64,000 nucleotides of DNA from contig PNAA01000041.1 of the NCBI GenBank assembly GCA_003169975.1, positions 657 through 64,656 of the forward strand, given 5' to 3'. A program made the position numbers and the translations under genes. Under the pieces are notes generated by a model. It saw only the letters and a program-made list of their open reading frames with translations. It was not told the DNA's origin and did no database searches. This DNA is from Spartobacteria bacterium (GTDB lineage: Bacteria; Verrucomicrobiota; Verrucomicrobiia; Chthoniobacterales; UBA10450). Shown piece after piece: positions 2,484 through 64,000 of the stretch; the first letter of the stretch is position 1, and each line of letters begins with the position of its first letter.

Positions 2484-3917
2484 ATGGCAGATCAACCAAC
2501 TGAATCAAAGCGTTTGCTGTCGCACACAATCGCCGAGTGGGCTTGCTCTCTAAAATATGAGCATCTTTCTCCAGCGGCGATCCAGGCCGCTAAATTGTTT
2601 TGGTTCGATTCCATCGGCTGCGCGCTCGGCGGCAGTCAGCAGGATGACGCGAAAATTTTATTGAAACATTACCGCGCCATGGGCGGCGGGACCGGCAGCG
2701 CGTCCGCGTTCGTCTCCGGCTTCAAGACTAATCCGGTCGATGCCGCATTCCTGAATGGCCACATGATCCGGGCGATGGATTACAACGACATTTATTGGAA
2801 AGCCGATCCGTGTCACCCGAGTGATCTCATCGCTGCGCCGCTGGCACTCTGTGAAAGCGAAGGCCTGAGCGGGAAGGATCTGATTCTGGCCACCATCATC
2901 GCCTACGAAATTGAAATGCGTCTCTGCGAAGTCGGCCGGCCGGGCGTGCGCGAATACGGCTGGCATCACGCCACCTTGAGCGCGTTCGCGGCGCCAATCG
3001 CGGCGGGGCGCGTCCTGAATCTCACGCCGGCACAGATGGTCTCTGCCATGGGCATCAGCGCCGCGCGCACTTTTTGTCCGGGTGCGGTGACGGCGGGCAA
3101 GCTGACCAACATGAAAAACACGGTCGATCCGTGGGCCGGGCGGATGGGCGCAGAGAGCGCACTCCTCGCGCGCGGCGGATTTTCCGGTCCGGAGCACATC
3201 ATCGATGGCAAAGAAGGCTTGTTCGCCGTTTTCCATCACGTGCAATACAAGGGCGAGCCGGCCACCTTCGACGGCGAAGCGCTGGTGGCGGATCTTCCGA
3301 ACTCCCCGAAGTCGCATTATCGCATCCTCGATTGCGGGATGAAGAGTTTCCCGATCGAGGCGCTGAGCCACGCGCCGCTCACGGCCATGATGAAGACGGT
3401 GAAGGAACACCAGATCAAGGCCGACGACGTGAAGGAAATCAAAGTCGAGGTGATCGCGCGCGCCGCCGACATCCTGGGCGATCCGCACAAGTATCGCCCC
3501 GATTCGAAAGAGACGGCCGACCATTCGCTGCCCTATTGCATGGCCGCGGGCCTGGTCGACGGCATGGTCACCCCGCTGCAATTCAAGGAAGAGCGGGTGC
3601 TGGACAAGGCGCTCATTCCGATCATGGACAAGGTGAAAGTCGTGCCTAACGAAGAGTTCGAAGCGCTCTTTCCCAAGTTCCAGCCGAGCCGGGTGACCAT
3701 CACGACCAACGACGGCAAATCACATTCCACCCGCGTCGATGTCCCGAAAGGCGATCCGCGCGATCCGATGACCGAGGAGGAGATCGCGGTGAAATTCACC
3801 GCGCTGGGCGGCGACGTGATCGGCAAGGAGCAATGCCAGAAGCTACAGCGCGTGATCATGAGCATGGAAACCGCCAAGGAGTTGGGCGGACTCTTTGCTC
3901 TAACCACGGCGCGTTAG
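2484..3917 (+). CDS. MmgE/PrpD family protein (2-methylcitrate dehydratase-like)
   Basis: The 477-residue product matches the MmgE/PrpD fold over its length: an N-terminal all-alpha domain with FDSIGCALGG and NGHMIRAMDYND, then the C-terminal lid domain. Known members include 2-methylcitrate dehydratase (methylcitrate cycle) and cis-aconitate decarboxylase. No prpB or prpC lies nearby, so the substrate is open. It is the only plus-strand gene beside the minus-strand lysine and acyl-CoA catabolism genes. Its TAG stop (3915-3917) lies inside a copy of CGTTAGGC. Confidence 0.85.
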   Translation: MADQPTESKRLLSHTIAEWACSLKYEHLSPAAIQAAKLFWFDSIGCALGGSQQDDAKILLKHYRAMGGGTGSASAFVSGFKTNPVDAAFLNGHMIRAMDYNDIYWKADPCHPSDLIAAPLALCESEGLSGKDLILATIIAYEIEMRLCEVGRPGVREYGWHHATLSAFAAPIAAGRVLNLTPAQMVSAMGISAARTFCPGAVTAGKLTNMKNTVDPWAGRMGAESALLARGGFSGPEHIIDGKEGLFAVFHHVQYKGEPATFDGEALVADLPNSPKSHYRILDCGMKSFPIEALSHAPLTAMMKTVKEHQIKADDVKEIKVEVIARAADILGDPHKYRPDSKETADHSLPYCMAAGLVDGMVTPLQFKEERVLDKALIPIMDKVKVVPNEEFEALFPKFQPSRVTITTNDGKSHSTRVDVPKGDPRDPMTEEEIAVKFTALGGDVIGKEQCQKLQRVIMSMETAKELGGLFALTTAR

Positions 3918-3968
3918 GCGGAGCACGCCGGAGAGCGCGTTGGGAGGAACGCGAGATGTCGCCACGCC

Positions 3969-4063
3969 CGTCATCCCGAGCGCAGCCGAGGGATCCCGTC
4001 GCGCAAGCTTTGCGGTAACTCCACGGGATCCTTCGACTCCGCTGCGCTTCGCTCAGGATGACG
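3969..4063. repeat. long palindromic repeat, TCATCC family, copy 1
   Basis: An imperfect inverted repeat of about 95 bases with ends CGTCATCCCGAGCG and CGCTCAGGATGACG. Each arm contains a GGATCC core (GAGGGATCCCG / CGGGATCCTTCGA). A second copy of the family lies at 7137-7228. It fills the gap between the convergent PrpD and aldehyde dehydrogenase genes and could form a long hairpin. Confidence 0.8.
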
Positions 4064-4070
4064 ACGGCCG

Positions 4071-5618
4071 TTAGGCCGTCGCGCTGCCGGCGTCGTCCGT
4101 GCCGAACCGGATCCCCTGCGCCAGCGGCAGCTCGGTCGAGTAGTTAATCGTGTTCGTCTCCCGCCGCATGTAGCTCTTCCACGAATCGCTCCCGCTCTCG
4201 CGTCCGCCGCCGGTCTCTTTCTCGCCGCCAAAGGCCCCGCCAATTTCCGCCCCGCTCGTGCCGGTGTTGACGTTGGCAATGCCGCAATCGCTCCCCGCGG
4301 GACTGAGAAACTTTTCGGCTTCCCGGACGTCGTTGGTGAAAATGGCGGAGGTCAGACCCTGCGGCACCCCATTGTTGATCGCGATCGCTTCATCGAAATC
4401 GCGGTAGGTGAGCAGATAAAGCAGCGGCCCAAAGGTTTCATCGTGCACGATCTTGAAATCGGGTTTCGCATTGGCCAGGCACGGCGTCATGTAACAGCCG
4501 CCGAAATATTTATCCCCATCGAGTCGCTCGCCACCGTAGAGAACCTCGCCGCCCTCGTCCTTCAATCGTTGGATGGAGTGCAGCACCGTGTCGACCGCCT
4601 GGCGATCAATCAACGGACCCATCAACGTGTTTTCATCGAGCGGATGACCGATTGGGACCGACTTATAGGCAGCCAAAAGTTTTGCGCGCACCTTGTCGGC
4701 GATCGACTCATGCATGATGACGCGCCGGGTGGAAGTGCAACGCTGCCCCGCCGTGCCGACGGCGCCGAAGAAGATCGATTGCGTCGCCATTTCGAGATCG
4801 GCGCTCGGGCAAACGATGAGCGCGTTGTTGCCGCCCAGCTCCATGATGGTTCGGCCGAGACGGCCATGGACCGTCTTGGCGACGTCGATCCCCATGCGGA
4901 CCGAGCCGGTTGCCGAGACGAGGGGAATCCGTCGATCCTCGGCCAGCTTTTGGCCAACCGTCACGCGGTCCCCAATTAAGAGTGAAAAAATCGCCGAATC
5001 GGCGCCGGTCGCGCGGCAAACACGCTCCGCGATTTTGATCACGGCGATGGCGCTCAACGGCGTTTTCTCCGACGGCTTCCAAATGGTGGCGTCGCCGCAA
5101 ACCGCGGCCAGGGCCGCGTTCCACGACCAGACGGCCACCGGAAAATTGAAGGCGGAGATCACGCCGACAATGCCCAGCGGATGCCATTGTTCCATCAGTC
5201 GATGATTGGGTCGCTCGGATTGGATCGTCAGGCCGTAAAGCATGCGCGATTGGCCCACGGCGAAATCGCAGATGTCGATCATCTCCTGCACTTCGCCTTT
5301 GCCTTCGGCGAGAATCTTGCCCGACTCGAGCGAGACGAGTTTGCCCAGATCGTCCTTCTGCTCGCGCAGGGCGTTGCCGAGCTGGCGGACGGTTTCGCCG
5401 CGGACCGGCCCGGGGGTGGTGCGCCATTTGGTGAACGCTTCCTGCGCGCGGCTCATCACCTTGTCGTAATCGGCCGGCGAGGCGGTGCGAAATTTGCCTA
5501 ACGATTTGCCGTCGACCGGCGAAATCTTTTCATGAACCGCGCCGCCGCCGTGCCATTCGCCGGAAAAAGCGCCGTAATTTTCCTGGTCGAGGCCGAGATT
5601 CTTAAAGACCGAGTGCAT
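4071..5618 (-). CDS. amaB: ALDH7-type aldehyde dehydrogenase (aminoadipate semialdehyde dehydrogenase)
   Basis: This 515-residue NAD-dependent aldehyde dehydrogenase resembles ALDH7A1/AmaB. It shows SAFNFPVAVW (catalytic Asn), MELGGNN (general-base Glu) and GQRCTSTRR (nucleophilic Cys). It is expected to oxidise L-2-aminoadipate 6-semialdehyde to aminoadipate. The adjacent co-oriented lysine 6-aminotransferase makes exactly that semialdehyde, which supports the assignment. The start is ATG at 5618. The stop TAA (4071-4073) lies inside a CGTTAGGC copy, and another copy codes for SLG near the N-terminus. Confidence 0.87.
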   Translation of the reverse strand: MHSVFKNLGLDQENYGAFSGEWHGGGAVHEKISPVDGKSLGKFRTASPADYDKVMSRAQEAFTKWRTTPGPVRGETVRQLGNALREQKDDLGKLVSLESGKILAEGKGEVQEMIDICDFAVGQSRMLYGLTIQSERPNHRLMEQWHPLGIVGVISAFNFPVAVWSWNAALAAVCGDATIWKPSEKTPLSAIAVIKIAERVCRATGADSAIFSLLIGDRVTVGQKLAEDRRIPLVSATGSVRMGIDVAKTVHGRLGRTIMELGGNNALIVCPSADLEMATQSIFFGAVGTAGQRCTSTRRVIMHESIADKVRAKLLAAYKSVPIGHPLDENTLMGPLIDRQAVDTVLHSIQRLKDEGGEVLYGGERLDGDKYFGGCYMTPCLANAKPDFKIVHDETFGPLLYLLTYRDFDEAIAINNGVPQGLTSAIFTNDVREAEKFLSPAGSDCGIANVNTGTSGAEIGGAFGGEKETGGGRESGSDSWKSYMRRETNTINYSTELPLAQGIRFGTDDAGSATA

Positions 5619-5628
5619 GTTCGTTAGG

Positions 5629-5688
5629 CTAGCTCAAGCTTCCAGCTTGCATCGATTTCTAAACTCGCAAGCTGGAAGCTTGCGCTAC
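5629..5688. repeat. GTAG-type palindromic element (REPIN-like)
   Basis: A 60-base inverted repeat: CTAGCTCAAGCTTCCAGCTT on the left, complement of GTAGCGCAAGCTTCCAGCTT on the right. It separates lat from amaB. Read on the minus strand, its GTAG end supplies the TAG stop codon of lat (5687-5685). Confidence 0.75.
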
Positions 5689-7079
5689 TTTTGCATCCGC
5701 TGACACTGCTGGCGCAGAATAGCCATCGCTTCGTCCGCGACTTCTGGCGTGAGATCAAGCGCCGGGCGGAAACGAATCGCGCGCTCGCCGGACTTCAACA
5801 CCAGCAGCCCAGCTTTGTACAACGACTTCCACAAAGTGTCCCGCGTCGCTGGATCCGGCAGATTGAAGGCGATGAACAACCCGCGCCCGCGAACGGCGCT
5901 CATCATTGAGCATTCCGCAGCGATCTCGTGCAAAGACTTGACGATCCGGGCGCCGACTTTCGCGGCATTCGCCACCAGGTTTTCCTCTTCGACAATTTGG
6001 AGAAAATGCTTCGAGCGCACCATATCAGTGAAATTTCCGCCCCAGGTTGAGTTTAGCCGGCTCGGCAACCGGAAAGCATTGTCCTTGACCTCATCGAGCC
6101 GCGGGCCGGCGATCACGCCACAGACCTGCACCTTCTTGCCGAAAGCGACGAGGTCCGGCTTCACATCGAAATGTTCGCAGCACCAGTTGCGGCCGGTGGT
6201 GCCCATGCCGCATTGCACTTCATCGAAAATCAGGAGCATGTCGTGGGCATCACAAATCTCGCGCAACTTCTGCAGCCATTCCCCGCGAAAATGATTGTCG
6301 CCGCCCTCGCCCTGGATCGGCTCGATGATGATCGCGGCGATATCAACGCCACGCTCGGAGACAAACTTCATGATCTCCTGCTCGGATTTCTTTTCGAGCT
6401 CGATCACGTCCTTCTCGCGTTCCGCTTCTGGCAGCGAGAAGTCAATTGATGGCGTCGAAACGCGCGGCCAGTTGAACTTGGCGAACAGGTCCGTCTTCCT
6501 CGGGTCCGTGTTCGTTAGGCTCATGGTATAGCCACTCCGTCCGTGAAAGGCGTGACGAAAATGCAGGATCTCCGTCCCGCGCTCGCCCAGGCCAGCCGCC
6601 ATGTTCTTGCGCACCTTCCAATCCATCGCCGCTTTCAGGCAGTTTTCGATCGCAAGAGCGCCGCCTTCAATAAACAAGTACCGGCTCAGCGGCGGCAGCG
6701 GAGCGACGCGGGTGAAGGTTTCGACGAAATCCGCATAAGCTTCCGAGTAGACATCCGAGTTTGCGATCTTCGTCGTCGCCGCGCGCAGCAACTCCTGCTT
6801 CACCTCGGGCTTGTCAAAGTGGGGATGCTGGAACCCGACCGGCACCGAGCCAAAGAACCCGTAAAAATCGATCAGGCGGTGAAGCGTGACCGCGTCGAAA
6901 ATATAAGAGCCTCGGCTTAGCTCGAGATCGAAGACGATCCCGAAGCCATCGAGCAAAACATGCTTGGCGATCTGGTCAAGGACGCGGGACTTCGGCTTGG
7001 CTTTGGATTTTTTGCTCGCACTGATGCGGTTGCCGGAAGGAGTCCGAGCCGCTTCGGTGAGCATGGATGGCATACTCAT
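5685..7079 (-). CDS. lat: L-lysine 6-aminotransferase
   Basis: A class III PLP-dependent aminotransferase of 464 residues. FIEGGALAIENCLKAAMDWK, HFRHAFHGRSGYT and IFDEVQCGMGTTGR are characteristic of L-lysine epsilon-aminotransferase, and AFGKKVQVCG holds the likely Schiff-base lysine. The reaction is lysine + 2-oxoglutarate to aminoadipate semialdehyde + glutamate. Together with the downstream ALDH7 gene it forms the first two steps of the aminoadipate route of lysine degradation. The start is ATG at 7079 (MSMPSM); later in-frame ATGs are possible. Confidence 0.88.
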   Translation of the reverse strand: MSMPSMLTEAARTPSGNRISASKKSKAKPKSRVLDQIAKHVLLDGFGIVFDLELSRGSYIFDAVTLHRLIDFYGFFGSVPVGFQHPHFDKPEVKQELLRAATTKIANSDVYSEAYADFVETFTRVAPLPPLSRYLFIEGGALAIENCLKAAMDWKVRKNMAAGLGERGTEILHFRHAFHGRSGYTMSLTNTDPRKTDLFAKFNWPRVSTPSIDFSLPEAEREKDVIELEKKSEQEIMKFVSERGVDIAAIIIEPIQGEGGDNHFRGEWLQKLREICDAHDMLLIFDEVQCGMGTTGRNWCCEHFDVKPDLVAFGKKVQVCGVIAGPRLDEVKDNAFRLPSRLNSTWGGNFTDMVRSKHFLQIVEEENLVANAAKVGARIVKSLHEIAAECSMMSAVRGRGLFIAFNLPDPATRDTLWKSLYKAGLLVLKSGERAIRFRPALDLTPEVADEAMAILRQQCQRMQK

Positions 7080-7230: not shown

Positions 7231-9162
7231 TCAGACAATGCCTTTGCGCAGGTCGGCGTGTTTCCCGGCGAGCAACTCCTGGGTCAGGTCGTAGCCGGCG
7301 CGATCCGCGTTGAGCGAGACTCCGGCGAACTGGGTGTCGATCCGCATTCTCGCCGAACGACAGAAATAAGTCGCGACCGACAAAATCTCAGCCACCGGCT
7401 CGCCGCTCTCGATCTTGTGCTGCGCGAAGGCGCAGCTCGCGCTCATCGCGAAAAGTTCCGTGGCGATGCCGACGAAGCGCGCGAGAAGCAACTGTTCGCG
7501 ATCGAGCTTGGGGCCGAAGCGCGTCATCGCGTGGAACAAACCGCGGGCCAGCCGTTTGCTCGCGCCGGCGGCGTAACGCACGTGCGGGCGCAAGTCGGCG
7601 TGCAACTTCTCGAGGTCGCCCGCGCTCGCGCCCATCCACTGTTTCGGATACCAGCTGGCGTAGAATTTCCCTGATTTGAAAACCGCCCTGGCCCGCTCCG
7701 AAGTCGGCAATTGGGTGTTGAAGATCGCGCCGCCGACCTTGAGATGCGGATCAAGCGCTTCGCGCGCGATGAAGAGGCGCATGATTTCGCTCGATCCCTC
7801 GAAGATCATGTTGATGCGGCAATCACGCAGGAAACGCTCCACCGGGATACCCTCTTCGCCGCGGCCTTCGAGCGATTGCGCGGTCTCGTAACCGCGACCG
7901 CCGCGCACCTGCATCGCTTCGTCGGCGATCCGCCAGGTCGCTTCCGTCGCCCACATTTTGCACATCGCGGTCTCGATCCGCAGGTCGCCCGCTTTGCCAT
8001 CGACCAGCGCGCTCGTCAGGAACGTCATCGCTTCCATCGCGAAAACATTCCCCGCCATCTCCGCGATCTTGCCCGCGATCGCATAGTGCTGGCCGATCGG
8101 CACGCCCCATTGCACGCGCTCGCCTGCCCACTTGCGGCAGATTTCGAGCAGGCGTTTGGATAAACCAACACAGGCCGCCGGGATCGTTAGGCGACCGGTG
8201 TTCAAGGTCGTGAGCGCGACCTTCAAACCCTGCCCTTCTTTCGCGATCATGTTTTCGCGCGGAACGCGAACGTTGGTGAATTTAACGATCCCGTTGTAGA
8301 GCGCGCGCAGCCCCATGAAGTGACAGCGGTAGGTAATCTCGAGACCCGGCGAATCGACCTCGACGATGAAGGCCGTGATCTGTTTGCGTTCCCTTCCCTT
8401 AACCATCTTCGGCGGCGTCTTCGCCATGACGACGAGCACGCCCGCTTTGATCAAGTTAGTGCACCAGAGTTTTTCGCCGTTCAGGATGAAGGCGGAGCCG
8501 TCCTCGGTCGCATCCGCGCGCAGGCTCATGTTCGCGGGATCGGAACCGGCATCCGTCTCGGTGAGGGCGAAAGCCGAAATTTCCTTCCGCGCAACCCGCG
8601 GCAGATACTTCGTTTTCTGCTCTTCCGTGCCGAAAATGAGGAGCGGCTGCGGGACACCGATCGACTGATGCGCCGAGACGAGCGCGGTGAGATTCGCGTC
8701 CCAACTGCCCAGCAACATCGCGGCCCGCCCGTAGTTCACCTGAGATAATCCGAGCCCGCCGTAACGGGTCGGGATTTTAATGCCAAACGCGCCCATCGAG
8801 AAGAGCTCGTCGATGTTCTTCTGCGGAATTTCGCCGGTCCGATCGATCTCGTCGGCGTCCACGTTCGCTTCCAGATATTCGCGCAGCTGTTTCAAGAAGG
8901 GATCGCCTTTCGCGCGGTCCTCCGCGCTTTGCGCCGGATAAGGAAAAATGCGGTCGAAATCGTAGCGGCCGATGAACAGGTTGCTCGCGAAGCTGCCCCT
9001 TTCATCGAGCGGATCGCGCGAACTTTCAGCGAGGTCGAGCGCGGCCGCCTTGCCGGCCGACATTTTGGAGGTGTCGATGACCGACTGCGCGGCCGGTTTT
9101 GCCGGCTGGGCGCTGGATTCTCCGGCGCCCTGCTTTTCGGGTGTTTCAAGCGGCGACTTCAT
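7231..9162 (-). CDS. acyl-CoA dehydrogenase (VLCAD/ACAD9-like long form)
   Basis: This 643-residue protein is longer than the usual 380-residue acyl-CoA dehydrogenases. It matches the VLCAD/ACAD9 layout: a proline/alanine-rich leader, the core from about residue 60 to 480, and a helical C-terminal extension. ALTETDAGSDPANM contacts FAD/substrate, and the catalytic Glu sits in MIFEGSSEIMRLF. It introduces the first double bond of fatty acid beta-oxidation. I chose ATG at 9162 (MKSPLETPEK); this overlaps the end of the upstream FadB/FadJ-type gene by 17 bases, indicating one operon. A CGTTAGGC copy lies at 8185. Confidence 0.87.
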   Translation of the reverse strand: MKSPLETPEKQGAGESSAQPAKPAAQSVIDTSKMSAGKAAALDLAESSRDPLDERGSFASNLFIGRYDFDRIFPYPAQSAEDRAKGDPFLKQLREYLEANVDADEIDRTGEIPQKNIDELFSMGAFGIKIPTRYGGLGLSQVNYGRAAMLLGSWDANLTALVSAHQSIGVPQPLLIFGTEEQKTKYLPRVARKEISAFALTETDAGSDPANMSLRADATEDGSAFILNGEKLWCTNLIKAGVLVVMAKTPPKMVKGRERKQITAFIVEVDSPGLEITYRCHFMGLRALYNGIVKFTNVRVPRENMIAKEGQGLKVALTTLNTGRLTIPAACVGLSKRLLEICRKWAGERVQWGVPIGQHYAIAGKIAEMAGNVFAMEAMTFLTSALVDGKAGDLRIETAMCKMWATEATWRIADEAMQVRGGRGYETAQSLEGRGEEGIPVERFLRDCRINMIFEGSSEIMRLFIAREALDPHLKVGGAIFNTQLPTSERARAVFKSGKFYASWYPKQWMGASAGDLEKLHADLRPHVRYAAGASKRLARGLFHAMTRFGPKLDREQLLLARFVGIATELFAMSASCAFAQHKIESGEPVAEILSVATYFCRSARMRIDTQFAGVSLNADRAGYDLTQELLAGKHADLRKGIV

Positions 9163-11227
9163 AGAATTTTGTGCTGTTCCTGGCGTGCCGGCGCAGGAGA
9201 TCGCACGGGGAGAACTTACCACCGTAGCGGTCGCCAGCCGCTACCATTTCTTTGATCCCGAAATGGTCGGCGAAGCGCAATGGGCCGCCGCGCAGCGGCG
9301 CGAAGCCGGTCCCGAGGATCATGCCGTAGTCCGCATCCTCGGGTGAGGCGACAACCTTTTCCTCGAGACAACGCGCGGCTTCGTTCACCATCAGGAAGGC
9401 GAGGCGGAGGGCGAGATCTGTAGCCGCGATCGTCGATCCCGGCCGCCCCGAGGCGTCGCTTTTTCCCGGGCCGGGATGAACCATCCCGGCTACAGCTTCG
9501 TTAGGCGATTGCGCTTTGCCTTCGTACTTGTAAAAGCCGCTACCGGTTTTACGGCCGAGCATTTTCGCCTCCTGCATTCTTTGCAGGATCGCCGGCGGGC
9601 GGGCGCGAGCACCGAACGACTTCTCGAGCGTGGCCGCAATATCCACCGTGATGTCGATGCCGACCTCGTCGATCAAACGGATCGGCCCCATCGGCATCCC
9701 CCACTCCACCAGCGCGGCGTCGATTTCCTTCGCGGCGACGCCTAGCTCGAAGAGCTCCGCGGCTTCAAGCAGATAGGGAAAAAGGACACGGTTAACGAGA
9801 AACCCAGGGCTGTCCCTAACGACCACCGGCCGCTTGCCGATCTGGCGGGCGAAAGCGAGCGCACGCTCTTTGGTTTCAGTGGAAGTTTGCTCGCCGATGA
9901 CAACTTCGATCAATTTCATCCGGCTGACCGGATTGAAAAAATGAAGGCCGATGACGCGCTGCGGATGCTTCGTTTCGGCAGCGAGATCGCTGATCGAGAG
10001 CGCGGAGGTGTTCGTCGCGAGAATGTCGGTGTCGTCGATTTTTGAATCGAGATCGTGGAAGATCGTCTTCTTGATCTCCAGTTTTTCAGAGGCCGCTTCG
10101 ATCACGATCTGCACGTCGCGCATCGGGCCAGGATTGGCCGAGGCGACAATGCGCGAGCGACCTTCCTTCGCCTTTTCTTCGCTCATCAAACCGCGTTTGA
10201 CCGCTTCGCCGTAGGTTTTCTCGATATTGGCGAGGCCGCGATCGAGCAATTCGATGCTGACGTCGCGCAGGATAACGGTCACTCCGCGCGCGCTGAGCCA
10301 TTGCGCGATGCCGGCGCCCATCACGCCCGCGCCGATGACGGCGGCATGCACAACTTTTTCGGCGGGCGCCTTGCTCGTCCCTTTGCGATAGCGATCGGCG
10401 AGGAAAAAGTTGCGGATCAAGTTGCGGGTCGATTCCGTTTCGCCCAGCTCGACGATGGCGTCGAGTTCGCGCCCGAGCGATTCATCGATCGAACTCGTCA
10501 GGCTGCGATTGATGATGTCGGCCGCCCGGCCGGGGGCCGGGTTTTGGCTGTGCGGCGCGGCGATTGGCTCTGGACGTGCGGAAGCAAGTCCCTCCGGGCG
10601 CTTGCCCGCTTGCAGCTGGGCGCGCGCGGCCTCGAGCAATTTCTCGGGCGGCACCACTTCGTCGACCAGGCCAAGTTTCAACGCCTCCTGCGCAGGATAG
10701 AGTTTGCCCTCGAGAATGACCTCCGCCGCCTTTTCCGTTCCGACGAGTCGCGGCAGGCGCGTCGCTCCGCCCCAGGCGGGGACCAAACCCAGCGTCGTCT
10801 CCGGCAACCCGATGCGCGTGGCGGGCGCATCCGACGCGATTCGGTAATCGCAGGCGAGCGTCACCTCATAACCCCCGCCCGCGCAGGCACCGTGGATCGC
10901 CGCAACGGTTGGGATTTTCAACGCGGCGAGGCGGCCAAAAATGCGCTGGCCTTCCGCAATAAACGCGCGCATCTCGCCGCTCGCCGCCTGCCGCAGCAAG
11001 GTCTGTAAATCGGCCCCGGCGATGAAGATCGATTTCTTGGCGGACGCCACAATCACGCCTTTAACCGCGCTTTCTTTCTCGATGAAATCGAGATGCGCGC
11101 TCAGTTCTCGCAACGCATCGGCGTCGAAGATGTTCGCGCCCGAATCCGGCCGATCGAAGGTCAGCAGACAGACGCCGTCAGCACAAATTTCACGCCGGAT
11201 CAAAGGCGCCACAGAAGAAGAAGCCAT
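9146..11227 (-). CDS. FadB/FadJ-type enoyl-CoA hydratase/3-hydroxyacyl-CoA dehydrogenase
   Basis: A bifunctional beta-oxidation protein of about 693 residues. The N-terminal crotonase domain has AAIHGACAGGGYEVTLACDY and an ETTLGLVPAWGG loop. The NAD-binding domain starts at AAVIGAGVMGAGIA, followed by the 3-hydroxyacyl-CoA dehydrogenase C-terminal domains (HFFNPVSRMKLIEVV). It hydrates enoyl-CoA and oxidises the 3-hydroxyacyl product. I prefer ATG at 11227 (MASSSVAPL); a TTG at 11263 would add 12 residues. A palindromic element (9419-9494) is inserted in frame near the C-terminus and adds a Gly/Pro/Ser-rich loop. Confidence 0.87.
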   Translation of the reverse strand: MASSSVAPLIRREICADGVCLLTFDRPDSGANIFDADALRELSAHLDFIEKESAVKGVIVASAKKSIFIAGADLQTLLRQAASGEMRAFIAEGQRIFGRLAALKIPTVAAIHGACAGGGYEVTLACDYRIASDAPATRIGLPETTLGLVPAWGGATRLPRLVGTEKAAEVILEGKLYPAQEALKLGLVDEVVPPEKLLEAARAQLQAGKRPEGLASARPEPIAAPHSQNPAPGRAADIINRSLTSSIDESLGRELDAIVELGETESTRNLIRNFFLADRYRKGTSKAPAEKVVHAAVIGAGVMGAGIAQWLSARGVTVILRDVSIELLDRGLANIEKTYGEAVKRGLMSEEKAKEGRSRIVASANPGPMRDVQIVIEAASEKLEIKKTIFHDLDSKIDDTDILATNTSALSISDLAAETKHPQRVIGLHFFNPVSRMKLIEVVIGEQTSTETKERALAFARQIGKRPVVVRDSPGFLVNRVLFPYLLEAAELFELGVAAKEIDAALVEWGMPMGPIRLIDEVGIDITVDIAATLEKSFGARARPPAILQRMQEAKMLGRKTGSGFYKYEGKAQSPNEAVAGMVHPGPGKSDASGRPGSTIAATDLALRLAFLMVNEAARCLEEKVVASPEDADYGMILGTGFAPLRGGPLRFADHFGIKEMVAAGDRYGGKFSPCDLLRRHARNSTKFYEVAA
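9419..9494. repeat. GTAG-type REPIN-like element inside a coding region
   Basis: 76 bases with perfect ends TGTAGCC/GGCTACA. Each arm is itself a hairpin: GCGATCGTCGATCCCGG on one side and CCGGGATGAACCATCCCGG on the other. It lies wholly within the FadB/FadJ-type reading frame without breaking it. Its closest relative in the window is at 39189-39268, also inside a gene. Confidence 0.8.
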
Positions 11228-12788: not shown

Positions 12789-12803
12789 TCCCGGCAACCT
12801 TCG

Positions 12804-13850
12804 TTAGGCGCGGTCGTTGATCGCGACCCATTCACCGCGCGCGCGCGAGTCGGCCACTGCCTGCACGACGCGCATGTAACGCACGCCATCCTCGAAATCC
12901 GGATGCGGATTAATACGACCCCGCGACTTCACCGCCGCGATGAAGTCATCCTCGACATGCCAGTTGGTTTCCAAGTCGGGGGTCAACTCGACGACGTGCA
13001 GGGCGCGATCGCCAATCTGGCCGGCGTGAACGACGTCGGCGCCGAAATCGTAGGTGAGCGTGCCGAGGTCGCCGTAAACCTCCAACCGGTCCGCCGGCGC
13101 GTGCGCGTCGACGCCGCTGAATTCGAGGACGCCTTCCATCCCATTGGCGAAAGTGCAAAGGACGGTAAGCAGGTCAGGAATGATCACTTCGTAACCTTGC
13201 CGCATCGGCTGCAGAATCCTGCCGCGCGCGAAGACGCCAGTGATCTCGCCGAACCAGTGCTGCAAGACCTCGACGTAGATCCCGAGTGTGAGCGTGTTGA
13301 GGCCGCTCATTTCCACGCGTTGCCGCCAGTGCGCAGGCGCATCGGGGTCGAGAAAGGCGCTGTCGAGACTCTGAAGGCGCAAGTGGTACGGCCGGCCGAG
13401 AGTTTTCTCCGCGAGTAATTTTTGCACGAGCAGATCCCCGCGCATTCCGTGGGGTGGCGGGCAAAGCATCGTCACCAGCTCGGGAAAACGGCGCGAGACC
13501 GAGAGCATTTCCTCCGCCTCGGCCAGATCCATCGCCATGCGCGCCTGACAAAAAACGTGTTTCCCCGCCTCGAGCGCCGAAACCGTAACCGCGGAATGCA
13601 TGTAGGGCGGCGTCCCGATCCAAATAATGTCGAGATCGGCCATGCCCAGCAATTCCGCCCAGTTCTGCATCGGCGTGGCGTGCGGCGCGTTCTCGCGGCA
13701 GAACTTCTCCGCGCTTTCGTAGGACGAATTGCAAACCGCGACCAGCTCGACGTCCGGCTGGCGTTGCAGTGCCGGCAAGTGGCGCCGGCGCACGACTTCT
13801 CCTGCCCCGACAATGCCGAGCCGCAGCTTGTGATTCGTTTTGTGACTCAT
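12804..13850 (-). CDS. Gfo/Idh/MocA-family oxidoreductase
   Basis: This 348-residue NAD(P)-dependent oxidoreductase has an N-terminal Rossmann fold (RLGIVGAGEVV) and a C-terminal alpha/beta domain. The usual EKP motif, whose lysine is catalytic, is replaced here by GKHVFCQARMA, so the chemistry may differ from sugar dehydrogenases or be lost. I chose ATG at 13850 (MSHKTNHK); an upstream TTG at 13919 would start inside a tandem duplication. Convergent with mgtE; its TAA stop lies in a CGTTAGGC copy. Confidence 0.82.
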   Translation of the reverse strand: MSHKTNHKLRLGIVGAGEVVRRRHLPALQRQPDVELVAVCNSSYESAEKFCRENAPHATPMQNWAELLGMADLDIIWIGTPPYMHSAVTVSALEAGKHVFCQARMAMDLAEAEEMLSVSRRFPELVTMLCPPPHGMRGDLLVQKLLAEKTLGRPYHLRLQSLDSAFLDPDAPAHWRQRVEMSGLNTLTLGIYVEVLQHWFGEITGVFARGRILQPMRQGYEVIIPDLLTVLCTFANGMEGVLEFSGVDAHAPADRLEVYGDLGTLTYDFGADVVHAGQIGDRALHVVELTPDLETNWHVEDDFIAAVKSRGRINPHPDFEDGVRYMRVVQAVADSRARGEWVAINDRA

Positions 13851-42633: not shown

Positions 42634-42663
42634 AGTGGCCTAACGCCTAACGATACATTACCA

Positions 42664-49034: not shown

Positions 49035-49042
49035 ATGGCGCC

Positions 49043-56667: not shown

Positions 56668-59600
56668 CTAACTGGCGAGGCGGTTCAGCGCCCGGAACCA
56701 GCGTCGTTCCATCGCATCGCGGACGTCGCGATTGGCCAGGAAGCGATGTTGAATGGTCACCTTCGTCCCGATGCCCGCCAATTCGAAACGCGCAACCACC
56801 TCGGAGCGGCGCCCGTCTTCGAAGATCCACTGCCCGCGGACCTCACCTGCGTCCTCCGCAAGATCCGTGAGCAAAGAGGGTATTTGTTCGTCGCCTTGGT
56901 GGACACTGTCTTGCAGGTTCATCCAACGCGACAACAGGCCTTCTCGTTTCGCGGGCATGAAGGCCTCAGCGAGGGCGACGTTTTGTTGCACGCCGTCAAG
57001 CTCGAGGAGGACGCCTCGATGGAGGTCGCGAAAATGCCGGCGTGATGCCACGTCTTCCACATTTAACGGAGCCTCGGGTGGCGGGAGCAGGTCGAGTTCG
57101 ATCAGGCCCGAGTCGCGCGATGACCGCCGCTCCCACATGTCGTCATCGAGCAGGTCGTAGAGTGCGCGCCGGCCCATGCCCATGCGCCGCAAATGATCGC
57201 GGACGCGAAAGTACAAAATCCGCCGCGCATTCTCGCCAGCTTCGGCCTCGCGCAGGAGGACGATGCCGACGGTAAAGGCCGGGCCTTCGTCGGAAGGTCC
57301 GCCGGGAACGAGTTGCAATACCTGGAGCGAGGATTGGGCGACGCGCTGGGAATGCCGGTCGAGGAAATAACTCAATAACTCCTTCTCAATCGGCGTGAGC
57401 AAAAATGCTTCCGATCCGCCTTTCGCGCCAATAATTTCCCGCATGCCCGCCACGGCTCCCTCTGCGTCCCTTGGTTCCACCACCTTCACTCTGCCCACTT
57501 CCAGGCCAAGAACCCGCTGGCAAAAATTCTGGAAACGCGCCCCACTGTTCGCCGCCGAAATCGTCCACGCGACGCGAAACATCCGCGACCACGCCCAATG
57601 CTTGAAGAGGTTGATCCAGCCGCGGTTGTCGGGATGCATGTACTCCTGCTCGAGGTGGAGGTCGTGATAAACGTCCTCCATCAGCTGGATCATCCGATTG
57701 CAGAAATAGAGGCCAGCCCGCACTTCCTCGTAGCTCTTGGGCAGCCAGAGGCCCGGGGGGACCGGGAGCGTCGGCGCCTGTTTCGCTCCGTGCGTCAGCA
57801 CGCTCCACTCCGGATAGATTTGTTGACTGAGGAAACGAAGATTCGGTTCGGTGCGCAGCGTTTCATAAAGCGCGTTGAGCGTTTCGCCACGGCGCTTGAA
57901 CGCCGGGTCGAGCGGCGCGGCGGGCGGATACCAGCGTTGCGCCAGCTCGACAAAGAGCCGCTCGGTCGTTAGGCCAGTCAGATTCTCCGGCGCATCAACC
58001 GCCAGAAGGGCGCTCATCGTCGCGTGGTGGCCGAGCGCGCGGTAGCTTTCAAACTGCGATTCGCCGAACCACTGGTCGGCGGTGCTTTCGTGGGGAAACG
58101 TCGGCTGGGACGCTGCATAACGCAGCACGTCCGTGTCTTCGTCACCGGTCAGCGACGACTTGATGTAGAGCAGGGTCCCGGCGTGTCCGGCGGGATCAGT
58201 TTTGTCGTAGCGAATCCGGCCGACCGCGCAGTGCCAACGGCTGTGTCCTTGCTCATCGCGCCGCCGGATCGCTTCGACATCCAGGTCGATCTCCACCCCG
58301 AGATCGGTGCGGCATTTTTCGATCGCGTTACCGAGCCCGCCAAACTCGAAATCGTGATCTTCCTCCGCGTCGCACGCGACGATGAAACGACAGCGTCGCC
58401 TAACGAGTTCGAAAATGCCGAGATTTTCGAAATGACCGCCGTCGGAGAGATAGATGTAATGCCCCTTGGCGTCGGTCAGACCGAACATCTCGACGATGAG
58501 GCGGCCGAGAGCCCAGAGGGGGCTGGATTTGCGCCAGCCTTGCGCGTGGCGCGGATTACCGATCCACCAACCGAGGCGGATGTTAAAGAGCGTCATGAGA
58601 AAAGCGGGCGCCGGCGAAGTGTGATACCCCATGTTCGGGCTCGCCGCGGCGCCCGAGATCGCCATCGCGGTCGCCAGGGTAAGCGGACCGCGAGATGCCG
58701 CATAGGCCGGGTAGGAATCCTTGACCGCATTCGAACAAAAACCGGGTGGCCGATCGGGAAAATCGTAGCCGCTATACTTGGGCGTGAAGACAAACGAGGC
58801 GGCTTTGCGTTGTTGCCACGCCAATTCGCCGCCTCCCACCAGATTCAGGGCGCAATTGATGATTGGATAAGGACCGGAGTCTTCCTTCCTCCATTCGCTG
58901 CGGTCGAGCGCGACCAGATCGATGTCGTCGTTCGGATCGAATCCAGTGAAGGCCTGGGGATTTCGCAGGCCGGCATTCGACGCCCCGAGATAGCAACGCG
59001 CGAGTCGGTTTCGATACATCATGTGCATCGAGAATTCGTTGATATCGACCCGTAATCCCAGCAGCGCGGCGATCCCGGCAGTCCCGAGGAGAAGAAAAGC
59101 AAGGAGGCAATTGCCGGTCGGTGCGATGCCCTCGCCCCAAAAGGCCCCGAATCCCCTAACGATATCGTAAATGACGTCGGGAAACCCAGACTGCAAGTGG
59201 GCCGTCGTCATCGCGTCCCAGTGCGCCGCGATCGTCGCGCCCAGTTGGTGGCCGGCGTAGGGGTCGTCGACGGTTGGCGAAACAATGCGATCGACTCCCC
59301 AAGCCAGGCCGGCCAGCAGCCCGAGAATGAAAACATATGGGCCGATCGTCGCGAGCAATTCGAGCCAGGAGTTCGATTTGCGCCGGCCGGTTGCGGGGCT
59401 CGAGGCGGCGAACAGCCCCGACAGGGTGGCGAAGACCCAGCCCAAGCTAAGCGCCGCCAGCGCGGTTTTCAGATTGAGAGCGAGCCAGCGCAGGAAGGGC
59501 GGGCTGTAAAAGGAGAGCCCGAAAATTCCCACCCAGAGGATCGAATAAATGAGAAGCCAGGCTCCCAGGCGACTCCACCATTCGCGCAGCGAATCGGGCA

Positions 59601-61257
59601 GGCTGCGACCCCTCAGTCCGATATAAATGATCAGCATGACGGATACGGCCAGGATGAACACCGGTGGTCCAAAAACGAGCCGCGGCCAGAAGCCGGCGCC
59701 ATCCGCATCGGGCAGAACGGTGTGAAAAGCGGAGAGCGCCAGACCTCCGATGGCGCCACCGGCTGCGAGCGAAAGCACACTGCCCAACGCCCGTTTCAGC
59801 TGGCCTAACGATGGCAACCTCCGCTTCCACCGCCATTGGCCAAGAAATCCCCCAAAGTGAGCCAGGACCGCAGTGACTGCGGCAATGCAGGTCCACAATT
59901 TCCATTGCTCGCGATCGATCCAAGCGCTCCAAGAGGCGGGCAGATTGAGCAGGACAGAGAGAGGGTCATCTTGACCGAGGAGCTGCACCGAAATGAATGC
60001 GGCGACGAACAGCGGGACTACGATTTGCAATTGGATACCCGTGCCCTGCTGCGCGAACGGTCCTTCCGCTTCCGGCAGCGGACGCAACAGGACCTGGTGA
60101 ATCTCGACGCCGTTGTCCTGCTCGAGTCGCCGCACCGCAATCCGGCCTGAATCCAGGTTGAGGAAAGGCGGGCGAGCGACGTTTACCACCCGATCGTTCA
60201 ATCGCACCGTGCACGTCCGGCCGACACGTTCGATGCTCATCCGATTGACTCGGCCCGACCCGATTGGCTCAATTTGCGCGCCCATCGCCCGCTGTTCTTT
60301 CAGCGGCGTCGGTCCATCGGACGGGAGCCGAATGTTGCCGGTTTGACCGCCGCCAATAACTATTTCCCATCCTTTCACAGCCTCGGCCTGGTCAACCGCC
60401 GGCACCCGCAGCATGACCGCTGCACACGAGTCTGCAGTCTTCAGGGTAAAATCAATCCGCAGGAGAAAGTCGGAAAACAATTCGCCCCCGGCCAAAAGAT
60501 GGAGCGCGGCGTCCGCTGGCGGCGAGTCAAGCTGGCGAACATCCTCCTCTTTGGGATCAAGCGGATCGCTCGCTGACACGTTGGCTGAGCGCCGCCGGAA
60601 CCCACTTAGATTCTTGTGAATGACCCAACCCGCCCACAACAGCGCGACCAGGAAAATCGCAGCCAACCCGCGCCTGCCCGCCAGTCCATCGGGCGCTACG
60701 ATCATTACCCCAATGACCCGCGGGAGCATGAGGACGAAGGCGAGCCCAGCAACCAAAGCCGTCAGATTCAAAAGCATATTCCGCAGGTAGATCGCGATCA
60801 CCGTCCACGTGTCCGCGCCGAACCAGCCGAGTTTCGGAGTGAGATAGTTGCTGAAGCGGCGCAGGAAGCGGACTTCCTCGGGACTCTCGCCGCCCGGATA
60901 GCGGCGCCAGGCAGTGCGCAGAGAGTTCGATATTTCCTCCAAATTCCCTCCGCGCCGAAGGATCCAGGCCACGAGCCAGCTGCCGATGTAGCCGCCGCCC
61001 GAAACGGTCGACAAATAGTGAAATTTTCTGAGCAACTGCAAATCGGCGAGCGCCTGGAGGACTCCGAGATTAAACGTGGCGCTGCGAATCCCACCGCCGG
61101 AAAAGGCCAATCCGGTTAGGCGTGAGTCATGGGCACGCTGCAGGACGCTCTCGCGGTCCGTTTCTCCGGGCACGCCGAAGCTGCTCAGTTCATCACTGAG
61201 GACCCGGACGAAATCGCACGAGGGCGGCTCGAGGGTGGAACGTTTTCGGCCAATCAT
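56668..61257 (-). CDS. very large patatin-like phospholipase with membrane segments
   Basis: 1529 residues. The N-terminus has the patatin oxyanion loop GLAFSGGGIRSATFNLGVLQ and the serine region STVSGGGYIGSW. Several membrane helices follow, along with a soluble insert of about 200 residues that looks like a beta-sandwich (residues about 220-400). The Asp of the dyad lies far downstream in YLSDGGHFENLG (about residue 940). The last 450 residues are unassigned. It should hydrolyse membrane lipids; the role is unknown. The first Gly of the usual GxSxG is not conserved. It is far longer than typical bacterial patatins (300-700). Confidence 0.82.
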   Translation of the reverse strand: MIGRKRSTLEPPSCDFVRVLSDELSSFGVPGETDRESVLQRAHDSRLTGLAFSGGGIRSATFNLGVLQALADLQLLRKFHYLSTVSGGGYIGSWLVAWILRRGGNLEEISNSLRTAWRRYPGGESPEEVRFLRRFSNYLTPKLGWFGADTWTVIAIYLRNMLLNLTALVAGLAFVLMLPRVIGVMIVAPDGLAGRRGLAAIFLVALLWAGWVIHKNLSGFRRRSANVSASDPLDPKEEDVRQLDSPPADAALHLLAGGELFSDFLLRIDFTLKTADSCAAVMLRVPAVDQAEAVKGWEIVIGGGQTGNIRLPSDGPTPLKEQRAMGAQIEPIGSGRVNRMSIERVGRTCTVRLNDRVVNVARPPFLNLDSGRIAVRRLEQDNGVEIHQVLLRPLPEAEGPFAQQGTGIQLQIVVPLFVAAFISVQLLGQDDPLSVLLNLPASWSAWIDREQWKLWTCIAAVTAVLAHFGGFLGQWRWKRRLPSLGQLKRALGSVLSLAAGGAIGGLALSAFHTVLPDADGAGFWPRLVFGPPVFILAVSVMLIIYIGLRGRSLPDSLREWWSRLGAWLLIYSILWVGIFGLSFYSPPFLRWLALNLKTALAALSLGWVFATLSGLFAASSPATGRRKSNSWLELLATIGPYVFILGLLAGLAWGVDRIVSPTVDDPYAGHQLGATIAAHWDAMTTAHLQSGFPDVIYDIVRGFGAFWGEGIAPTGNCLLAFLLLGTAGIAALLGLRVDINEFSMHMMYRNRLARCYLGASNAGLRNPQAFTGFDPNDDIDLVALDRSEWRKEDSGPYPIINCALNLVGGGELAWQQRKAASFVFTPKYSGYDFPDRPPGFCSNAVKDSYPAYAASRGPLTLATAMAISGAAASPNMGYHTSPAPAFLMTLFNIRLGWWIGNPRHAQGWRKSSPLWALGRLIVEMFGLTDAKGHYIYLSDGGHFENLGIFELVRRRCRFIVACDAEEDHDFEFGGLGNAIEKCRTDLGVEIDLDVEAIRRRDEQGHSRWHCAVGRIRYDKTDPAGHAGTLLYIKSSLTGDEDTDVLRYAASQPTFPHESTADQWFGESQFESYRALGHHATMSALLAVDAPENLTGLTTERLFVELAQRWYPPAAPLDPAFKRRGETLNALYETLRTEPNLRFLSQQIYPEWSVLTHGAKQAPTLPVPPGLWLPKSYEEVRAGLYFCNRMIQLMEDVYHDLHLEQEYMHPDNRGWINLFKHWAWSRMFRVAWTISAANSGARFQNFCQRVLGLEVGRVKVVEPRDAEGAVAGMREIIGAKGGSEAFLLTPIEKELLSYFLDRHSQRVAQSSLQVLQLVPGGPSDEGPAFTVGIVLLREAEAGENARRILYFRVRDHLRRMGMGRRALYDLLDDDMWERRSSRDSGLIELDLLPPPEAPLNVEDVASRRHFRDLHRGVLLELDGVQQNVALAEAFMPAKREGLLSRWMNLQDSVHQGDEQIPSLLTDLAEDAGEVRGQWIFEDGRRSEVVARFELAGIGTKVTIQHRFLANRDVRDAMERRWFRALNRLAS

Positions 61258-62184: not shown

Positions 62185-62274
62185 CGGCCATTGGTTTCGC
62201 TATGATTCGACCCGAAGTCCATCAGCGCGTTCGTCATTTTCTTGCAAAGCTTCCGCCGCCTCTTACATTTCCCG

Positions 62275-62460
62275 ATGAAACCCCTGTTGAGCCTCGCTCT
62301 TGTCCTGATCCTGAGTGGATGCGCGGAGGACACGCCCCCCGCGCAGGAAGTGCGCGACCAATTTGAACGCGGCCTTTCCGGGCAGGGCCACATCGTCCCG
62401 ATCGATCGCCCGGATGATCCGGCCACGCGTCCGACCTCCACCTTTCCCGACTCCAACTGA
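62275..62460 (+). CDS. small lipoprotein
   Basis: 61 residues from ATG at 62275: a lipoprotein signal with lipobox LSGC ([16 protein letters not shown]), then a short acidic/Pro-rich tail. The function is unknown. It stops one base before guaA and may be co-transcribed with it. Confidence 0.7.
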
Positions 62461-62461
62461 C

Positions 62462-64000
62462 GTGAAGACGCCGTCACATTCGCGAATTCTCATTCTCGAT
62501 TTCGGCTCGCAATACACGCAGGTCATCGCGCGGCGGGTGCGCGAGTGCCAGGTCTTTTCGGAGATCGTGCGCTGCGACATCACGGCAGCGGAAATCGAGC
62601 GACTGGCGCCGAAGGGAATCATTCTCTCGGGCGGACCGGCGAGCGTCTATGAAAAAGGCGCGCCGCAAATCGATCCCGACATCTTCTCGTTAGGCACGCC
62701 CGTTCTGGGCATCTGCTACGGGATGCAATTGATGGCGCGCCATCTCGGGGGCGAGGTGGAGTTCAGCCCGCAGCGCGAGTACGGTGCCGGAGTCCTGCAC
62801 ATCGACAAGGGCACCCCGCTCTTCGACGGGCTCGGCGAGCAGATGGACATCTGGAACAGCCATGGCGACAAGCTCGCCGCCCTGCCCGACGGCTTCCACG
62901 TCGTCGCGCATACGGAGAATTCCGCCTTCGCGGCGATCGAAGACACCGAGCGCCACCTCTACGCCCTTCAGTTTCACCCCGAAGTGTCGCACACCCCGCA
63001 CGGGAACGAGATCATCGAGAATTTCCTCTTCCGCGTCTGCCATTGCGCGATGGATTGGACGATGGGCTCGTTCATCGACGAGGCCTGTGAACGCGTTCGC
63101 CAGCAGGTGGGTGACCAGAAAGTCGTGCTCGGGCTGAGCGGCGGGGTCGATTCCTCGGTCGCGGCGGCGCTCCTGCACAAGGCGATCGGCGACCAGCTCA
63201 CCTGCATCTTCGTCAACAACGGACTGCTGCGCGAAAACGAAGCCGAGACGGTGCAACGCATCTTCGGCGAGAATTTCCAGATCAAGCTCAAATACGTCGA
63301 CGCCTCGGAGCGTTTCCTCCGGCTGCTCGAAGGCGTGACCGATCCCGAGACGAAACGCAAGGTGATCGGCGGCGAGTTCGTTAGGGTGTTCGAGCAGGCG
63401 ACGGAAGAATTGCTCGCCCAGGATCACGCCGACGAGCGCCCGCACGCCGGCTATCGCTTTCTCGCCCAGGGCACCCTTTACCCCGACGTGATCGAGAGCG
63501 TGGCGATCGGCGGTAACCCTGCCTCGCTCATCAAAAGCCATCACAATGTCGGCGGGCTCCCCGAGAAAATGAACTTCGAGCTGGTCGAGCCGCTGCGGGA
63601 GCTCTTCAAAGACGAAGTACGCCAGGCCGGCCTGCAGCTTGGCCTGCCTAACGAAATCGTGCATCGTCAGCCCTTCCCCGGTCCAGGGCTCGCCGTCCGG
63701 ATCTTGGGCGAGGTGACGCCCGAGCGGCTCCGCATTTTACGCGACGCCGATACGATCGTGGTCAGCGAAATGAAGGCGAGCGACTGGTATTACCGCGTCT
63801 GGCAATCCTTCGCCGTCCTCCTCCCGGTGCGTTCGGTCGGCGTGATGGGCGACCAGCGCACCTACGAAAACACCATCGCGCTGCGGATTGTCGAGAGCCA
63901 GGACGGGATGACGGCCGATTGGGTGCGAATGCCCTATGAAATCCTCGCCCGCATCTCGAGCCGGATCGTGAATGAAGTGAAAGGCGTCAACCGCGTCTGC
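62462..64000 (+). CDS. guaA: GMP synthase (glutamine-hydrolysing), 3' end cut by the window
   Basis: 513 codons are present and the frame runs off the end at GVNRVC, about 14 residues short of the usual C-terminus. The class I amidotransferase domain has the catalytic Cys in GICYGMQL and His/Glu in FHPEVSHT. The ATP-pyrophosphatase loop is LSGGVDSSV, followed by the dimerisation domain ([15 protein letters not shown]). It converts XMP to GMP. GTG at 62462 follows the lipoprotein stop by one base. Confidence 0.96.

Follow-up and report, generated by a model that had tools for sequence, protein, structure and literature searches.

Why should a single nine-base word recur, on both strands and both in and between genes, along a stretch of bacterial DNA? 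The question is raised by the window analysed here, that is, the whole 64,000-nucleotide stretch of contig PNAA01000041.1 from a Spartobacteria bacterium of the order Chthoniobacterales, and by the word TCGTTAGGC (word 1) within it. Our answer, pieced together from the genome of the window (G000, an assembly of 4.47 Mb) and those of its relatives, is that word 1 and an unrelated second word found in the same family (f1), AAGATCGACA (word 2), are probably DNA-uptake words, kept by sequence-biased natural transformation. They would resemble the DNA uptake sequences (DUS) of Neisseriaceae and the uptake signal sequences (USS) of Pasteurellaceae and be separate from these two known families.

Enrichment in the Window and the Genome

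Exact counting gives 40 copies of TCGTTAGGC in the window, 46 of CGTTAGGC and 53 of TCGTTAGG, bearing out the totals (40, 46 and about 53) of a preliminary description of the same DNA. In 100 dinucleotide-preserving shuffles, word 1 appeared 0.32 times on average and at most twice; in the actual sequence, it is the commonest 9-mer, the runner-up having 20 copies. As described earlier, the copies are split near-evenly between the strands (20:20), are spaced at about 1.2–1.4 kb (median 1,314 bp) and occur both in and between genes, with 34 within predicted genes, 4 intergenic and 2 spanning a gene end; two predicted genes terminate on the TAG or TAA stop of the word. Nine of the eleven positions that had been given as examples are right, and two are off by one (29379 instead of 29378, and 39936 instead of 39937). 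The spacing within the window is more even than random (coefficient of variation 0.72, P = 0.0145).

The enrichment also withstands the genome-wide count and the control for codon usage that the preliminary description had called for. Across the whole genome, word 1 occurs 1,980 times (981 and 999 by strand; 0.44 per kb) and the reversed word 61 times. In 324 kb of G000, with a coding fraction of 85%, 89 of 109 copies are intragenic, 15 are intergenic and 5 lie across a gene end, and the intergenic density is similar to the coding one. Shuffling of synonymous codons, which preserves the protein sequence and codon usage of every gene and leaves codon pairs free, retains a mean of 2.0 and a maximum of 8 copies (200 shuffles) against the 89 coding copies observed. 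Word 1 is carried in four of the six frames and on both strands, the remaining two frames containing a stop. The commonest frame, Ser-Leu-Gly, accounts for 34 of the 89 coding sites, and 34 of the 70 Ser-Leu-Gly triplets spell the full word despite TTA making up only 2.8% of Leu codons.

Distribution among Relatives

The comparison of relatives suggested in the preliminary description shows word 1 to be confined to one family of Chthoniobacterales. Among 83 genomes of f1, more than 1,000 copies are found in seven, namely all five of the window's genus, G037 and G038; the maximum is 4,605 copies in 4.3 Mb, the density in G042 reaches 1.07 per kb, and the remaining genomes have 19–587 copies. 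In the 12 other families of the order, all 130 genomes have 0–30 copies. Many of the relatives are incomplete and fragmented assemblies, and single absences therefore mean little.

Of 387 genomes drawn from across the phylum, 384 lie outside f1, and four of these have more than 30 copies: G394, G397 and G406 (family f18, genus g76) and G580 (f15), with between 59 and 133 copies (59, 61, 75 and 133 in ascending order), stand above their reversed controls and above other non-f1 genomes. Contig C173 of G103, a genome of another family with a total of eight copies, has five copies of TCGTTAGGC within 2 kb and is perhaps a contaminating contig from f1. A galactokinase relative at 72% identity, from a metagenome-assembled genome (MAG; JAICXG010000118.1), lies on 8,452 bases with eight copies of word 1. 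Neither word occurs more than once in a locus labelled Candidatus Udaeobacter (galactokinase identity 66%), and we therefore do not equate f1 with that taxon.

A Second Word in One Clade

Word 2 was found by de novo word counting, which covered parts of 14 of the 83 f1 genomes, and has no relation to word 1. G038 contains 4,653 copies in 2.9 Mb (1.6 per kb) and five further genomes (G002, G004, G044, G046 and G047) more than 1,000 each; the window's genus has 19–29 copies and the other families of the order 0–46. G038 is rich in both words, with 621 copies per Mb of word 1 and 1,604 per Mb of word 2, and in 15 synonymous shuffles of its genes, the expected coding copies were 6.5 for word 1 and 47 for word 2 against 295 and 663 observed.

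The phylogenetic placement of the words comes from an rpoB tree of 29 rows, consisting of two outgroups and 27 of the 83 f1 genomes, selected by us (G001 gave no match, the rows of G002, G009 and G013 are partial, and five forks are open). The first group, the window's genus together with G037 (support 97/87), has word 1 at 427–1,071 per Mb; the second, with a support of only 85/73, has it at 47–178 per Mb; and the third clade (99/99), which includes G038, has word 2 at 7–1,604 per Mb and word 1 mostly at 7–127 per Mb. Word 1 is present at 1 and 5 per Mb in the outgroup rows, and word 2 is high solely within the one clade. The most parsimonious reading is that word 1 is ancestral and that word 2 was acquired inside the third clade.

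Genus g5 belongs to the third clade and has little of either word. A strong third word was not found in g5, g6 or g8 (one genome each): the g8 genome carries word 1, and in those of g5 and g6 nothing beyond a weak CTCGTTAG/TCTCGTTAG variant appeared. A weak excess of the same forms is seen in stretches of G014 and G022 (L139–L146 and L153–L158); in g5 and g6, the variant is possibly a decayed or shifted word 1. A scan for new words in 80 named loci, considering the top word of each locus and scores above 18, brought up L081 and L136 as well as four loci whose candidates were rejected: that of L130 is a tandem array (positions 13457–13578, period 8 bp, ACAGTTTCAC 15 times) at the contig end of a Lentisphaeria MAG, that of L082 is a paired dispersed repeat, and those of L068 and L096 look like homopolymer or A/T runs. 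On a contig of an Opitutales MAG (L109), the palindrome GATCATGATC occurs six times in 21 kb, with 0.1 expected, and is a possible HIP1-like word in another order.

Anatomy, Orientation, and Inheritance of the Words

The mismatch profile of word 1 in G000 is recognition-like. Single mismatches are in excess at positions 1, 2, 8 and 9 (23, 21, 18 and 38 observed; 4.3, 2.4, 3.6 and 3.9 expected), near chance at positions 3, 4, 6 and 7 (0, 2, 14 and 9 observed; 2.9, 6.0, 19.7 and 6.7 expected) and intermediate at position 5 (22 vs. 11.4 expected); the flanks carry little information and little shared sequence. For word 2, 286 perfect copies compare with 60 over all 30 single-mismatch forms. Its preference extends to G and then C before the word and A or T after it, with weaker positions, a T-leaning stretch included, up to about +18. 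In G038, word 2 has a density of 2.76 per kb in non-coding and 1.31 per kb in coding DNA and is 2.1–2.4 times denser between genes. Of the 506 predicted genes, 31 have a TAA stop that overlaps word 2, and 34 of the 850 sites are succeeded, 15 or 16 bp further along, by another 9-base copy with identical orientation.

The orientation of the words was assessed on a 350-kb stretch of a G038 contig, where the G+C skew is weakly negative throughout and no origin is mapped. Word 1 is divided 98/115 and word 2 297/302 between the strands, and neither a strand polarity of the type of Chi or KOPS (FtsK-orienting polar sequences) nor a clear regional gradient was seen across this distance.

The positions of the words are often inherited. 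Compared with relatives at 77% nucleotide identity, word-1 sites of the window are intact in 17 of 23 comparisons, and other 9-mers in 3,178 of 26,465 (12%). The comparisons used 14 of the 40 sites, 12 of them with an aligned relative; six weak-match loci of 30 were left out and, for the figure of 17 of 23, one gapped comparison of 24 was dropped. Among 23 one-sided comparisons, with word 1 present in just one of the two genomes, 21 align without any gap and the remaining two show a one-base length difference; word 1 is thus gained and lost by substitution. A second comparison used an orthologous cluster of secretion/pilus genes together with adjoining genes, with rows lacking an ortholog or gapped at the site set aside: word-1 sites of G000 are intact in 6 of 8 cases in G037, 5 of 9 in G042, 2 of 7 in G038 and 0 of 6 in G039, and word-2 sites of G039 in 7 of 8 cases in G038 and 0 of 6 in G000.

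The 40 exact matches of TCGTTAGGC in the window are listed below with their strand and their placement against predicted genes; gene prediction, here and throughout this analysis, relied on a simple hexamer-based script instead of a published gene finder, gene names rest on family matches, and the state in relatives, where given, comes from alignments.

3644..3652, minus: PrpD-like gene 2595-3917, antisense
5496..5504, minus: gene 4071-5618, sense
5621..5629, plus: intergenic
6512..6520, plus: gene 5685-7064, antisense
8184..8192, plus: gene 7231-9162, antisense
9498..9506, plus: gene 9146-11212, antisense
12477..12485, plus: gene 11385-12788, sense
12801..12809, plus: complement gives the TAA stop (12806-12804) of minus-strand gene 12804-13850
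15790..15798, plus: gene 14289-15866, antisense
18212..18220, plus: gene 17687-18793, sense
19549..19557, minus: gene 19263-19607, antisense
20319..20327, plus: gene 19705-20547, antisense
21323..21331, plus: gene 21084-21782, antisense
22944..22952, plus: GTPase gene 22072-23370, antisense
25609..25617, minus: epimerase-family gene 25348-26865, sense
29298..29306, minus: gives the TAG stop (29302-29300) of DEAD-box helicase gene 29300-30598
29379..29387, plus: gene 29300-30598, antisense
31899..31907, plus: intergenic
36496..36504, minus: gene 36253-37977, sense; intact in G040, G042
37701..37709, minus: gene 36253-37977, sense; intact in G042, two mismatches in G040
38505..38513, plus: gene 37964-38692, antisense; intact in G040, G042
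39163..39171, minus: phosphatidate cytidylyltransferase-like gene 38689-39666, sense; intact in G042
39936..39944, minus: gene 39666-40331, sense; intact in G042
41222..41230, minus: gene 41076-42509, antisense; intact in G041
42645..42653, minus: intergenic; no aligned relative
43329..43337, minus: gene 42664-43983, antisense; absent in G042
43559..43567, minus: gene 42664-43983, antisense; intact in G041, G042
45111..45119, plus: prfB gene 45104-46303, antisense; no aligned relative
46678..46686, plus: galactokinase gene 46290-47360, antisense; intact in G037, absent in G041, G043
47446..47454, minus: gene 47350-47889, sense; intact in G037, G041, G043, absent in G040
48090..48098, plus: PLP-enzyme (pyridoxal phosphate) gene 48002-48964, sense; intact in G037, G040, G041, absent in G042
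49467..49475, plus: ornithine cyclodeaminase-family gene 48974-49981, sense; two mismatches in G040
52500..52508, minus: gene 51501-53489, sense
53490..53498, minus: intergenic, adjoins the predicted 5' end of gene 51501-53489
53903..53911, minus: gene 53651-56512, sense
57966..57974, plus: gene 56668-61257, antisense
58398..58406, minus: gene 56668-61257, sense
59803..59811, minus: gene 56668-61257, sense
62687..62695, plus: GMP-synthase-like gene 62462-64000 (extends past the window), sense
63646..63654, minus: gene 62462-64000, antisense

The window also contains stretches of about 28–85 bp (42538-42566, 39186-39270 and approximately 49005-49034) with many recurrences in the congeners G040, G041 and G042; these are possibly elements like the repetitive extragenic palindromes (REP) and distinct from word 1.

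Word-Poor DNA

One region of G038, at 354–400 kb of contig C14 (L312–L314), is nearly devoid of both words, with 5 copies of word 1 against 28 expected and 1 copy of word 2 against 79 expected. Its G+C content resembles that of the chromosome (0.5745 vs. 0.5685), and its G+C skew is reversed. The region encodes TraG- and TrbI-like proteins, restriction-type proteins and an efflux pump of HlyD/AcrB type, and has a TraC match below the cut-off of that family; judged by its TraG/TrbI-like genes, it looks like a conjugative element, and this one region is our case of word depletion in such DNA. In G000, word-free gaps of 24, 27 and 34 kb are stretches of somewhat lower G+C, one of which, on reading its predicted proteins, is a polysaccharide/sulfotransferase-looking region. 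Conjugative elements of Neisseriaceae have been located through the atypical distribution of DUS (PMC7371117).

Uptake as the Probable Explanation

We favour uptake because the words are restricted to one family, because a second word is specific to a clade, because both are depleted in the conjugative-element-like region, and because competence-type genes are present. Under the mechanism that we envisage, a DNA receptor on the cell surface, probably one of the minor pilins of a type IV pilus machine, would bind the word on free DNA; word-bearing DNA would then be preferentially imported through ComEC and recombined into the chromosome. The word would build up by biased recombination, through molecular drive together with selection, as incoming word-bearing alleles are proposed to win over word-free ones. 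A change in receptor specificity could account for word 2 having taken the place of word 1, and a genome such as G038 could owe its two words to a pair of receptors or to a single receptor caught in transition.

Two families are described as showing sequence-biased natural transformation (PMC12616744), and the words of both resemble the present ones in several respects. The DUS of Neisseriaceae, which is read by the minor pilin ComP, is an asymmetric word of about 10 bases that occurs in both orientations and at up to about one per kb (PMC3630211, PMC12616744, PMC1626085); it has clade-wise dialects that track the phylogeny, with two variants in one genome in S. muelleri (PMC3630211, PMC12616744), and is atypically distributed in integrative conjugative elements (PMC7371117). 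The USS of Pasteurellaceae, with the candidate receptor ComN/PpdA, has a 9-base core in both orientations and many coding copies (PMC1626085, PMC12616744), originates by substitution rather than insertion and comes in two clade-specific types (PMC1626085, PMC12616744); the core of word 2 with its weak, T-leaning downstream preferences slightly resembles the AT-rich USS segments (PMC1626085). Unlike these, the present words belong to another phylum and are unrelated in sequence. The known dialects within one family share an inner core (PMC12616744, PMC3630211), those of DUS sharing CTG and differing by a few bases and the Hin- and Apl-type USS sharing GCGG (PMC12616744), whereas words 1 and 2 have no core in common. 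Word 1 further differs from DUS in showing no inverted pairs in the stretches read, and an equivalent of ComP is not known here.

Redfield and coworkers have listed traits common to USS and DUS (PMC1626085). Word 1 agrees with the list in how many copies there are, in being unbiased in orientation, in its spread over a family and in arising by substitution; word 2 agrees in its strong consensus and its preference for non-coding DNA. On balance, we think it probable that word 1 behaves like an uptake sequence and make no claim of its membership in DUS or USS.

Transformation Machinery

Competence-type genes, among them the comEC and type IV pilus genes to which the preliminary description had pointed, are present in f1, and G000 has matches to ComEC, PilT and DprA. 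ComEC is matched in 81 of the 83 f1 genomes at E ≤ 1e-3, in 76 of them below 1e-20, and in 207 of 213 genomes order-wide; in G000, the protein contains DUF4131, Competence and beta-lactamase-like parts. PilT is matched in 81 of the 83 genomes, 77 of them over the cut-off, and DprA in 74, of which 71 over the cut-off. The minor pilin that could bind the word, also suggested there, was not found: prepilin matches number 10–18 in each of five f1 genomes and 102 in the sole outgroup sampled, and none of the f1 minor-pilin candidates examined could be identified as the receptor.

A protein of 606 amino acids, linked to the minor pilins and found in 19 of the 83 f1 genomes, was rejected as a receptor marker as it shows no clean fit to either word. 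A lead comes from the minor pilin at the GspH position of a conserved cluster, spotted among 31 proteins in a comparison of just five genomes: it is basic, with an isoelectric point (pI) of 9.2–9.9, in G000, G042 and G037 (L245:7239-7712, L249:11869-12336 and L255:15545-16018) and acidic (5.2 and 5.7) in G038 and G039 (L251:12620-13093 and L256:13687-14160). As G038 with its acidic pilin is also rich in word 1, we regard the contrast as a lead and not as evidence. The protein passes no family cut-off beyond N_methyl, and its four weak matches to solved structures, the best with an E of 0.061, all fall in the N-terminal third.

Rather a number of observations weigh against the uptake explanation. 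First, none of the ComEC matches in the 213 genomes is over the curated cut-off of the model. ComEC, PilT and DprA are found also in g5 and g6, genera poor in the words, and families that lack the words still have ComEC; being nearly universal, these genes offer no contrast, and the presence of competence genes is ruled out as a predictor of word density. No receptor has emerged from the candidates just described, and the 606-amino-acid marker is missing in G037 and G040, both rich in words, and in each of the four g13 genomes, yet present in seven of the eight genomes of the word-poor g6. Genus g14 (35 genomes) has no PilT match below E 1e-130, such matches being present, by score only, in 11 of the 13 other f1 genera, and its rows in the rpoB tree keep word 2 at 20–330 per Mb; either the genus has a different retraction motor, or these scores too count against uptake. 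Second, word 1 lacks the inverted pairs, the non-coding preference and the strong consensus shared by DUS and USS. Its single-mismatch copies outnumber the perfect ones in both G000 (147 vs. 109, with chance alone expected to give about 61 of the 147) and G038 (145 vs. 123); no preference for non-coding DNA was seen on contig C14 of G038 (0.40 per kb non-coding vs. 0.55 coding); and close inverted pairs, a secondary and non-defining trait of DUS and USS that often forms terminators, were not found in the stretches of G000 read, where the smallest spacing is 81 bp. The close pairs of word 2 in G038 are, unlike those of USS, mostly direct (29 of 39) and less often inverted (10 of 39). Finally, the even spacing of the window was not seen in five other stretches, and the inheritance of sites looks weaker with G038 as the reference, word 1 being intact in G000 at 2 of 12 sites and word 2 in G039 at 7 of 23.

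Alternative Explanations

The preliminary description held that the lack of strand bias fits an uptake or HIP1-like role better than Chi or KOPS. The absence of polarity holds at the larger scale, and uptake, as far as can be judged from genome sequences, seems to fit best; the HIP1-like half of the claim fared less well. The Chi-like, HIP1-like and chromosome-organising explanations each fit badly with at least one observation.

The strongest of the competitors, though in our estimate an unlikely one, is that the words are Chi-like recombination signals, read inside the cell by RecBCD or AddAB and protecting broken chromosomes. Like Chi, they are short, asymmetric and enriched genome-wide, in genes and between them; their scarcity in the conjugative-element-like region and their kept positions would fit as well. 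Chi of Escherichia coli is strongly oriented with replication, whereas the words here are balanced across the 350 kb of the G038 contig. The coexistence in one genome of two unrelated words, with lengths of 9 and about 11 bases and with one reaching 1.6 per kb, is awkward too, as a Chi-like role would then need two readers.

Next in line, and likewise improbable, are words of the HIP1 kind, maintained by a DNA methyltransferase or a repair bias and without any role in uptake. HIP1 and its methyltransferases (PMC4390886) provide the example of a short word enriched genome-wide, the word enriched here extends across its family, and word 2 contains GATC, as does HIP1. HIP1 is, however, a palindromic octamer, GCGATCGC, with methylation sites, and a similar role is less likely here because neither word is palindromic; that unrelated words dominate different clades of f1 is awkward for a fixed methylation site.

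We give marginally less credence still to binding sites of a chromosome-organising protein involved in nucleoid structure, segregation or division, comparable to KOPS and to the sites of SlmA and MatS. Chromosome-wide, asymmetric and scarce in a recent element, the words would suit such a function, but they show neither strand polarity nor a clear regional gradient over 350 kb, their density of 0.4–1.6 per kb exceeds what is generally known of such systems, and the tight consensus of word 2 is unlike that of ordinary protein sites.

Far less probable is an origin as remnants of a dispersed mobile or REP-like element: despite the thousands of copies and some direct pairs of word 2 at 15–16 bp, most copies are inside predicted genes, and for word 1 the uninformative flanks and the nearly always ungapped one-sided alignments largely rule out insertion. 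That protein composition and codon usage alone generate the words, for which only the frequent Ser-Leu-Gly frame could speak, has a negligible chance: codon-pair effects apart, it is ruled out by synonymous shuffling in both G000 and G038, and against it stand the use of four frames on both strands, the similar intergenic density and the 34 of 70 Ser-Leu-Gly triplets spelled with a rare Leu codon.

Significance

Among the papers listed on uptake words, HIP1 and this group of bacteria, no uptake word was evident for the group, the coverage of subscription journals being poor; a search for TCGTTAGGC itself returned, among the titles listed, none on this group or on DNA uptake. Whether we are looking at a third independent origin of uptake words and the first outside Proteobacteria, with the ancestral TCGTTAGGC replaced in one clade by the unrelated AAGATCGACA and with G038 bilingual and presumably equipped with two receptors, is to us an evenly balanced matter. 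Even without a role in uptake, two unrelated words at 0.4–1.6 per kb, one of which stays in place between genomes of 77% identity, call for an explanation.

If the uptake explanation is true, self-recognition in transformation would have evolved for a third time, in a distant phylum known here largely from metagenome assemblies, and the replacement of one word by another would be a natural experiment on changing uptake specificity that is beyond the reach of dialects differing by a few bases. The absence of the words would mark foreign islands in f1 genomes, and mating barriers between these bacteria could be read from raw genomes. Lastly, the bacteria themselves would be predicted to be naturally transformable, and placing the word on DNA would provide a practical route to transform them.

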